Of a DNA stretch of 29,712 nucleotides, positions 1 to 10,931 are shown in pieces. The notes below the pieces were generated by a model. That model was not told the origin of the DNA, did no database searches, and was given only the letters and a program-made list of their open reading frames with translations. Each line of letters starts with the position of its first letter. Positions within the stretch are counted from its first letter, which is position 1. A program made the translations under genes and the position numbers. Source of the stretch: a virus; the IMG/VR virus record IMGVR_UViG_3300022929_000132, positions 1 to 29,712 of that record. One strand, written 5' to 3'.

Positions 1-72
1 CATGAATTTATTAAGATCAATCTCAACTTCATTTCTGGACATATCACCAGAGAATCTATCTCTATCTGCCAT
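1..72 (-). CDS. Partial CDS (N-terminus only), unidentified tail/hub-region gene
   Basis: The first 24 codons of a minus-strand gene are present and the frame is open to the window edge. The peptide begins MADRDRFSGDMSRNEVEIDL and is hydrophilic. The start is supported by an AAGAGG ribosome-binding site a few bases upstream and by the stop of the preceding small ORF 12 nt before it. In T4 the genes after 26-51 are 27, 28 and 29 (hub and tape measure). In lambda the gene after the frameshifted chaperones is the tape measure. Position therefore suggests a tail-hub or tape-measure gene, but 24 residues do not identify it. Confidence 0.7.
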   Translation of the reverse strand, partial: MADRDRFSGDMSRNEVEIDLNKFM

Positions 73-84
73 GTTCTTTACCTC

Positions 85-231
85 TTATTGTCTTTGTTTC
101 ATCTTTCTTTCTTCTTCTTCAAGATGTTTCATTAATAATGTAACATAGACCTCTCTCTCCCATGGTATCATATTTTCTAGTTCAGTTAAACTATAATTGT
201 GATACTGCATCATCGCGAAATTTGTTTGCAT
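85..231 (-). CDS. gp51-like short ORF, probable C-terminal part of a gp26 frameshift fusion
   Basis: A 48-codon reading frame counted from the ATG at 231. It contains SLTELENMIPWEREVYV and a highly charged, probably helical tail rich in E, K, R and Q. From memory, this 'ELENM-PWER--Y' signature is typical of the short protein following gp26 in T4-like phages; T4 has gene 51 (hub assembly) there. No convincing ribosome-binding site precedes this ATG; the nearest is a weak GAAAG 13 nt away. The frame stays open upstream through codons reading SLSHESLYNY to the slippery site in gp26. It is therefore probably translated mainly as a -1 frameshift extension of gp26, not on its own. The gp51 identity is inferred from position and motif and is not certain. 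Confidence 0.7.
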   Translation of the reverse strand: MQTNFAMMQYHNYSLTELENMIPWEREVYVTLLMKHLEEEERKMKQRQ

Positions 232-260
232 GTAATTATACAAACTTTCGTGAGAGAGGC
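150..260 (-). promoter_or_regulatory. Candidate RNA structure stimulating frameshifting
   Basis: On the minus strand, CCTCTCTC (259-252) is exactly complementary to GAGAGAGG (157-150), with an extra G-U pair outside. Nested one base inside is CGAAAGTTTG (250-241), pairing with CAAAC (228-224) and TTTCG (220-216) across a 3-nt AAA bulge. The inner loop (240-229) contains the ATG at 231. The outer helix starts 7 nt after the slippery heptamer, within the usual 5-9 nt spacing for -1 stimulators. The pairings are read directly; folding energy and function are untested, and the roughly 90-nt span of the outer helix makes it uncertain. Confidence 0.4.
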
Positions 261-968
261 TTATCCGAAAAAATCAGAAATACCCTGTAACTCTCTATCT
301 TGTGTTTTACCACATTCACTACATTCATAAGATACTTTATTAACAAGTCTAGGCATGTCTTCAAAGAATCCTTGGATTCGTTCAAACTGTTCTGTAGATA
401 ATGATTCCATAAACTCCATCAATTCTTTTTGATCGAAATCTTCTCTAGTGTGAACTTCATCTCCATCATATATTGATTCAACACATGCTGCTAACATATT
501 AAATATATCATTACTATTTATATCATCCGTACTGTTTTGAAGTGATATTATGTTAGGATATGATAAATTTATTCCAATATCTTCTGTAATTTCTATAGTT
601 GATTCTTGATTGCCTTCATGAATTGTTAGATTTCTTAAATCAACTTGAACTTGAGTTCTAGCTTCTTCATGGCAATCACAACCTAATAGTAGGTCTGCTG
701 TCTCACCGGCTGATTTAATTCTAATTTGTACGAATAACCATTCTACATCTGTTAATGGTAGATAATCTAGTTTGAGTTCATCTTCATTGTAAACACATGC
801 TTTGATTAGATCGAACATTGAACTTTGTATAGTCTTATCATCTTCACCTTCTAAAGCTGATAATAATACTTTTTGTTCTTTGACCAAAAATGGTCTAAAG
901 TCTGCTTTCTTTTTTGTAATAGGTAGTTCTGTAGTATATCGAACTGCCTCAAGTTTAGGTAATGCCAT
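261..968 (-). CDS. gp26: gp26 baseplate hub assembly protein
   Basis: A 235-residue protein of the T4 gp26 family (Pfam T4_baseplate), which in T4 takes part in assembling the central baseplate hub with gp51, gp27, gp28 and gp29. The N-terminal pattern MALPKLE followed by RPFLVKEQKVLL (residues 25-36) is characteristic. Two cysteine pairs, C97-x-C99 (followed by H100) and C216-x2-C219, could form a Cys4 zinc site. The start has a GAGGA ribosome-binding site, and a TATAAATA late promoter lies about 25 bp upstream, inside the end of the preceding gene. The C-terminal codons contain a slippery heptamer that can fuse this protein to the following short ORF. Family membership is well supported; metal binding is inferred. 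Confidence 0.85.
   Translation of the reverse strand: MALPKLEAVRYTTELPITKKKADFRPFLVKEQKVLLSALEGEDDKTIQSSMFDLIKACVYNEDELKLDYLPLTDVEWLFVQIRIKSAGETADLLLGCDCHEEARTQVQVDLRNLTIHEGNQESTIEITEDIGINLSYPNIISLQNSTDDINSNDIFNMLAACVESIYDGDEVHTREDFDQKELMEFMESLSTEQFERIQGFFEDMPRLVNKVSYECSECGKTQDRELQGISDFFG
267..273 (-). promoter_or_regulatory. -1 programmed ribosomal frameshift slippery site
   Basis: The gp26 codons read GAT TTT TTC GGA TAA, so the heptamer T TTT TTC matches the X XXY YYZ rule in the correct phase. A -1 slip replaces the last glycine and stop with CGG ATA AGC CTC and continues without a stop into the gp51-like ORF ending at 85. The product would be about 294 residues: 234 of gp26, 12 linker residues and the 48-residue ORF. 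The phase match, the missing ribosome-binding site downstream and the gene pair's likely chaperone-type role support function. Efficiency cannot be judged from sequence. Confidence 0.7.
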
Positions 969-992: not shown

Positions 993-1000
993 TATTTATA
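993..1000 (-). promoter_or_regulatory. T4-type late promoter upstream of gp26
   Basis: A perfect TATAAATA on the minus strand overlaps the last codons of the gp54-like gene. Transcription would start a few bases downstream, giving a short leader that carries the gp26 ribosome-binding site GAGGA. It could give gp26 and the following genes expression independent of the upstream genes. It matches the T4 late-promoter consensus recognised by the gp55 sigma factor with gp33 and gp45. Confidence 0.65.
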
Positions 1001-1604
1001 GTCTTCCAAATAGTTTGTCTTCAACCTTTGTTTTAACTTTACTTTTAATTTTTCTTTTGAACTTATTAAATAGACCACCAAGTAATCCTGAAGGTGAATT
1101 TTCGAATGATGAAGACCATGATCTAAAAGCTACTGAAACTGTAAATGTTTGTATGTCTGATGCTGATGCATCTAATGTTTGTTCTTGAATGTTCTGTGGA
1201 AATGCTTCGTGTAATTCTACTTCATATACAGCCAAATTATCTTGACCCATTTGTCTTATTTTAATTGTACCTGTATAGTCATCTTGATATTGAAAACCAT
1301 ACGCTTCATCATGAATATATTGTTGCCACAATTCGAATGTTTGTTTATCTTCAAAAGTATGATCACACATGAAAGTCATTGTCACAACACCACCACCATA
1401 GTCAACTTTGTTTGGGTGTTTTCTCATAGGACCACCACCATACTCAGACATCTCTGCAAAGACTATTTGTTTACCTGGTATGTTAATATTAGTACATCTA
1501 AGTCCTCTACTTCTGATACCAGCTGGTCCGAATATCTCAACTTCAAATTTATTTTGACGAGTCATTTGATCAACATGAGCTGCCATAAATCTATTGATGT
1601 TCAT
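996..1604 (-). CDS. gp54-like baseplate tail-tube initiator
   Basis: A 202-residue protein of the tail-tube fold. The N-terminal half reads as a gp19/gp54-type tube domain: a residue 19-26 strand (NKFEVEIF), a loop with RCTNINIPGK, then an EYGGGP stretch and a V-x-M-x-F strand followed by FELWQQYI. T4 gp54 joins gp48 on top of the hub and nucleates the inner tube. The basic C-terminal tail (FNKFKRKIKSKVKTKVEDK) is not expected in a simple tube subunit. Its ATG shares one base with the upstream stop (TAATG), implying coupled translation. It is shorter than T4 gp54 (320 aa). The alternative is the major tube protein gp19, less likely in this baseplate context. Confidence 0.6.
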   Translation of the reverse strand: MNINRFMAAHVDQMTRQNKFEVEIFGPAGIRSRGLRCTNINIPGKQIVFAEMSEYGGGPMRKHPNKVDYGGGVVTMTFMCDHTFEDKQTFELWQQYIHDEAYGFQYQDDYTGTIKIRQMGQDNLAVYEVELHEAFPQNIQEQTLDASASDIQTFTVSVAFRSWSSSFENSPSGLLGGLFNKFKRKIKSKVKTKVEDKLFGRL

Positions 1605-10469: not shown

Positions 10470-10931
10470 ATGGCAGATAAAAAAATAACCGCGCTTACGG
10501 ATTTAAGCACAAGTATTGCAGGCGAAGATTTATTGCATGTGATTGATGATCCTTCTGGAACTCCAGTTAACAAGAAAGTAACAGTAGCTAATGTTCTTAA
10601 TTACCTACCAACTTTCTTAGCTTTTGCTCAAGCAGAACAATCTTTAACAGGAGCTGGAGCAGCTAATGTTACATCTGCAGTTACAGCGTTTACTACAAAT
10701 ACTGATAACTCAGGTAACAACGCAGTTACTTTGGCAGCAGGAACAGCTGGTCAGATTAAAATTCTTTACACTAAAGTAGAGTCTTCATCTGGTCAAACAA
10801 CAGTTGTTACACCAGCAGCTTTCGCTAATGGTACAACAATCACCTTTGATGCAGTAGGTGACGCAGCTATACTTTACTACAACGGATCTACATGGGTTTG
10901 TTTAGCAGAAGTAGGTGTTGCAATTGCATAA
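10470..10931 (+). CDS. Small structural protein of marine T4-like phages
   Basis: A 153-residue Ala/Thr/Val-rich protein beginning [20 protein letters not shown] and then [17 protein letters not shown]. This opening is a recurrent start of small virion proteins and fibre N-termini in marine T4-like phages. The rest is predicted beta-rich ([14 protein letters not shown], then [20 protein letters not shown], ending TWVCLAEVG), resembling a trimerising fibre or decoration head domain. It has one of the best ribosome-binding sites here (GAGAGGAAC), suggesting many copies. No cysteine cluster, signal or membrane segment. The exact position in the virion is unknown. Confidence 0.6.

Follow-up and report, generated by a model that had tools for sequence, protein, structure and literature searches.

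A conserved poly-T slippery site at the end of gene 26 points to frameshift-made short and long tail assembly chaperones in T4-like phages

Layout of the gene 26–gp51 locus

We analysed a stretch of 29,712 nucleotides from the IMG/VR virus record IMGVR_UViG_3300022929_000132 (positions 1 to 29,712, hereafter the window). The features relevant here lie on the minus strand at the beginning of the window, with the gene for the tube protein directly upstream of gene 26:

996–1604, minus strand: gene for a gp19-like tube protein (PF06841, E 1.7e-7; phrog_45 tail tube, E 2.5e-26)
261–968, minus strand: gene 26, putative short chaperone (TAC-N, counterpart of lambda gpG), 235 aa
283–286, minus strand: Shine-Dalgarno-like core AGGG, probable frameshift stimulator, 9 nt before the heptamer
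267–273, minus strand: slippery heptamer T_TTT_TTC in −1 phase, read from the sequence
85–267, minus strand: gp51 / TAC-C extension in the −1 frame (putative lambda T counterpart), 60 codons plus stop
1–72, minus strand: beginning of the following gene, truncated where the window ends; it has a ribosome-binding site of its own, GAGG

Direct reading of the minus strand shows that gene 26 ends in GGT ATT TCT GAT TTT TTC GGA TAA, with the stop codon at 263–261 and, as an earlier note on this DNA had pointed out, a T_TTT_TTC heptamer in phase near the end of the gene, at 273–267. The −1 frame, which reads CGG ATA AGC CTC TCT CAC and onwards from position 267, has no stop until the TAA at 87–85, confirming the open frame and the fusion of about 294 residues that had been predicted, with 234 residues from gp26 and 60 from the extension making up 294 aa. 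Both parts match the T4 gp26/gp51 family (PF12322, phrog_150 and phrog_634), with hits of gp26 to PF12322 (T4_baseplate, E 1.1e-55) and phrog_150 (E 1.8e-56), and of the downstream open reading frame to phrog_634 (gp51, E 3e-24). In the window genes examined, other in-phase poly-T or poly-A heptamers lead into open frames of at most 14 codons; a 60-codon open −1 frame has a chance probability of about 1e-4 per locus.

Conservation of the heptamer and the shifted frame

Across 98 gathered loci (84 from IMG/VR and 14 from phage records), which are not phylogenetically independent, yet have highly diverse gp26 proteins that are mostly 33–41% identical to that of the window, an in-phase T_TTT_TTN stood at the end of gene 26 in 97 (61 with C, 30 with T, 5 with A and 1 with G as the last base). 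The gp51 domain lay in the −1 frame in all 94 loci where it was detectable, bearing out the suggestion that both the heptamer and the open −1 frame would be conserved among relatives. The chance of an in-phase T_TTT_TTN elsewhere in gp26 genes is 0.001 per codon, corresponding to 0.016 expected per gene in the last 15 codons, against the 97 of 98 loci observed. Because the heptamer recurs in nearly every locus and the gp51 domain follows in the −1 frame wherever it is detected, we do not regard the heptamer as a chance occurrence. In 4 loci the gp26 stop codon is placed 21 nt further downstream, with the position of the heptamer relative to the tail unchanged.

The codon preceding the Phe pair always ends in T, though the encoded residue differs (S, D, N, A or G), and the first Phe codon of the pair is TTT without exception. 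For 81 representatives below 70% identity, this NNT TTT codon choice has a log10 P of −29 under the genes' own synonymous usage. The heptamer and the tail are also found in Aeromonas phage Aeh1, Cronobacter phage LPCS28, Agrobacterium phage OLIVR5 and Vibrio phage D481; in Aeh1 (locus L136, 2235–2402) and LPCS28 (locus L137, 2178–2342) the gp51 tail is unannotated.

Coding of the junction and alternatives to ribosomal slippage

Conservation of the FFRIALSHDSLENYYKTNFALMQHHKYSLTELENMIPWERE... sequence sets in at the heptamer, some 18 residues ahead of the Met that is usually annotated, and runs on from there. Differences between close pairs at the junction, sorted by codon position in the −1 frame (1.45, 1.61 and 4.05), fall mostly in the third position, and by these sequence measures it is the −1 frame of the junction that codes for protein. 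This bears on the reading that gp51 is a separate small protein made from its own start, with the heptamer and its −1 phase being incidental, which in the window would mean initiation at the ATG at 231–229 on the minus strand and a product of 48 aa. Short separate gp51 genes with varying starts are indeed annotated in GenBank records; however, conservation begins well ahead of the annotated Met, the heptamer is invariant, and 35 of the 81 representatives lack any ATG, GTG or TTG in the stretch from the heptamer to the conserved NF motif. No good ribosome-binding site precedes the window ATG at 231–229, whereas gp26 and the gene after gp51 each have one, as had been noted earlier from the sequence, and set-wide pairing with the anti-Shine-Dalgarno sequence (mean dG) amounts to −0.65 kcal/mol at tail ATGs, resembling random internal ATGs (−1.30 kcal/mol), compared to −5.97 kcal/mol at gp26 starts. 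Because of the −1-frame coding, the absent junction starts and the weak anti-Shine-Dalgarno pairing, independent initiation is a poor explanation, and we consider it very improbable.

Reinitiation after termination (translational coupling), where a stop and a start codon overlap as in TAATG, would likewise place the tail in the −1 frame. In V05, BUCT608, S-CRM01, AF3, K444 and GR28A the gp26 stop codon does overlap an ATG. The window and most of its relatives, however, have no start codon at the gp26 stop, and the heptamer is retained even in most of the overlap cases, leaving this route with scarcely any probability as the source of gp51; stop-start coupling probably only supplements slippage, or takes its place in Ackermannviridae-like phages. 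The T run could also act on RNA polymerase rather than on the ribosome, giving mixed mRNAs, as six consecutive T might support transcriptional slippage. We hold this to be very unlikely too, since both the exact X_XXY_YYZ phase and a selected Shine-Dalgarno-like element at fixed spacing, described below, point to the ribosome, and the T run is usually just six, closed by C.

Elements flanking the slippery site

Set-wide, anti-Shine-Dalgarno pairing peaks 9–10 nt upstream of the heptamer, with a mean of −6.1 kcal/mol versus 0.06 kcal/mol gene-wide. The signal exceeds that of synonymous shuffles (z = −10.6), while control EG, QG, KG and RG dipeptides elsewhere in the same genes gave z = +2.4; 12 T4-type genes, which would no longer need such an element, gave z = −2.1, compared to z = −5.0 for 12 random frameshift-type genes. 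A start codon at initiation distance from the element was found in only 1 of 78 cases. Judged by these comparisons, the upstream element is under selection, and the AGGG of the window is probably a frameshift stimulator. Downstream of the heptamer, a weak excess of local structure was detected at 6–18 nt (z about −0.75). A consensus downstream hairpin was also considered, and RNAalifold on the ungapped alignment gave no stem.

The frameshift site of Escherichia coli dnaX combines an A_AAA_AAG heptamer with a Shine-Dalgarno-like stimulator about 10 nt upstream and a strong downstream stem-loop. The spacing and kind of the upstream stimulator match the window element, but the heptamer differs (T_TTT_TTC in the window) and the downstream structure in our set is weak. 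An upstream element of this kind offers a simple account of how the ratio of short to long product could be set.

Separate genes in the T4 branch and exceptions in Ackermannviridae-like phages

The earlier note had given T4 the same 26-51 gene order, but T4 lacks such a run in a single direction: its genes 26 and 51 are separate and divergent, gp51 consisting of an entire gp26-like protein with the tail added. Separate genes are found in T4 and 32 similar loci, many of them near-identical. Residues 1–201 of T4 gp51 (249 aa) match the gp26 family (PF12322, E 4e-55), and the C-terminus of T4-type gp51 carries the tail (phrog_634). Profile comparison with hhalign aligned T4-type gp51 with the window gp26 (98.3%, E 1.6e-14), and matched the frameshift tails to T4-type gp51 across the junction, beginning at the shift-site residue (95.9%, E 5e-9). 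T_TTT_TTN was absent from the end of T4-type gene 26 in all 33 loci, where the Phe pair, if kept, is usually TTC TTT and where, in most cases, a stop interrupts the −1 frame after a few codons; loss of the heptamer is expected if the long form now comes from its own gene.

In a phylogenetic tree, frameshift gp26, T4 gp26 and T4 gp51 are separate, with T4 gp51 forming one clade, and frameshift gp26 groups with Ackermannviridae-like gp26; the root of the duplication is not placed by the tree. Because of its wider spread, the frameshift would appear to be the older state. Two further arrangements were seen among annotated records. In the RB43-like Cronobacter phage GAP161 (locus L140, 1501–2794), gene 51 (long) lies directly before gene 26 (short) on the same strand, unlike in T4, and T4 gene 26 (locus L142, 1807–2094) has an annotated internal in-frame product, 26'.

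In four Ackermannviridae-like phages (loci L020, L134, L135 and L138) the tail is kept in the −1 frame after gp26 and the slippery heptamer is absent. Two of them, K444 and GR28A, show the stop-start overlap TAATG, and Menlow and PhaxI have neither heptamer nor overlap. Judging from these loci, the Ackermannviridae-like tail can be expressed in some way other than heptamer slippage.

Likeness to the lambda and HK97 chaperones

The window order of tube gene, 26 and 51 parallels V, G and T of lambda, and the locus resembles lambda gpG/gpGT in that the predicted −1 shift comes shortly before the short gene ends, the C-terminal extension lies in the −1 frame, and the gene follows that for the tube within the tail cluster. 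The tail is contractile in the window phage and flexible in lambda, the slippery sequence and the protein sizes differ, and the likeness comes from gene layout and shift signal, not from a sequence match. On the other side of gp51, the homologue of the gene at 1–72 in a related locus (L002) belongs to phrog_10198 and is followed by a long protein that is not securely a tape measure; the long proteins downstream match tape measure families weakly or not at all.

AF2 models were obtained for gp26 (pLDDT 88.9) and T4-type gp51 (pLDDT 91.4), and the fold search library comprised 350,542 chains. The best-probability PDB match of the gp26 model was 2ob9, the HK97 tail assembly chaperone, with a probability of 0.63 and 0.47 for its two chains and an E-value of 1.0, about 95 columns being aligned and the window protein being more than twice as long; the next match was 3fgx (probability 0.35), the E-values of the matches being near 1 or above. 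This is suggestive of a weak fold link between gp26 and the HK97 chaperone. No PDB match was obtained with the T4-type gp51 model, comparison of the gp26 and gp51 profiles with PDB sequences gave nothing credible, and the tail family had nothing above noise in Pfam. The proposal that gp26 and gp51 are the T4-type counterparts of lambda G and GT is thus supported by the conserved heptamer, the −1 phase, the open frame and the coding junction, together with this weak fold link.

Discussion

Our preferred reading, to which we assign a probability of about 0.94, is that gene 26 and the gp51 frame constitute one recoded gene producing short and long tail assembly chaperones by frameshifting. Most ribosomes would stop at 263–261 and release gp26 (235 aa), the short chaperone. 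In a minority, the 3' end of the 16S rRNA would pair with the AGGG 9 nt upstream and so hold the ribosome, which would move back by one base on T_TTT_TTC and continue to 87–85, producing the long chaperone, the 294-aa fusion. If lambda is a guide, the tape measure protein would be coated by a large number of short and a small number of long molecules, the C-terminal tail would recruit tube subunits, and neither chaperone would stay in the virion. In the T4 branch each product would have a gene of its own, 26 for the short form and 51 for the long form, which is read in frame. The signal, its phase, its conservation, the junction coding and the homology to T4 gp51 are what the sequences show, and from these we infer the slippage and its rate, what the upstream element does, and the function of the products as chaperones. 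Sequence evidence could hardly support the frameshift better. Weighing against this reading are the Ackermannviridae-like loci that have no heptamer, the weak downstream structure, the poor E-value of the fold match and the uncertain identity of the tape measure gene next to the locus.

A 2010 review of the T4 tail (PMC3004832) places gp26 and gp51 among the hub assembly chaperones, with gp51 described as essential, of unknown function and absent from the final particle, and a 2016 review of recoding (PMC5009743) calls G-T frameshifting widely conserved 'except T4'. The earlier note knew of no description of such a frameshift for T4-like phages, a statement that fails in the light of Vladimirov, Gautam and Davidson 2022 (Virology 566:9-15, doi 10.1016/j.virol.2021.11.003), which identified tail assembly chaperone genes of T4-like phages and is cited for poly-T −1 frameshift signals in T4-like TAC-N genes (PMC12846349) and for T4-like phages that instead encode the short form and the long fusion in two separate genes (PMC10885494). 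Additionally, some GenBank entries label both proteins 'tape measure protein assembly chaperone'. The abstract of the 2022 study reportedly names genes 26 and 51 and describes frameshifting as conserved in several T4-like groups. Because of that study, as the citing papers present it, and the existing GenBank labels, the frameshift finding is right in substance but not new.

As far as it is described in those papers, the TAC-N/TAC-NC system of Vladimirov et al. 2022 involves the same genes, the same poly-T −1 site at the 3' terminus of the short form and, in the T4 group, the same division into separate short and long genes; nothing essential differs in the window, which would be another, uncultured marine member. 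The new parts may be the upstream Shine-Dalgarno-like element, the marine-wide numbers and the Ackermannviridae-like exceptions without a heptamer, of which the stimulator and the exceptions seem to us worth following. A broader scenario, in which the shift is driven mainly by the upstream stimulator, had a single origin close to the root of the T4 superfamily and twice gave way to other means, to gene duplication in the T4 branch and to stop-start coupling or another device in Ackermannviridae-like phages, has in our estimate even odds of being correct.

Seen across about 100 diverse marine and cultured phages, the 'gp26' and 'gp51' of most T4-like genomes would be two products of one recoded gene, which many records split wrongly or leave without gp51, as in Aeh1 and LPCS28. 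T4 gp51 fits as an in-frame version of the long chaperone.

Other genes in the window

A 153-aa open reading frame at 10470–10931 on the plus strand, situated between baseplate wedge genes, has no PHROG or Pfam match. At 2191–2835 on the minus strand, between gp2-like and gp4-like structural genes, lies a Gcw_chp protein (PF09694, E 1.6e-16) with no PHROG match and with an N-terminal signal-like stretch, which looks like a phage-carried bacterial envelope protein.
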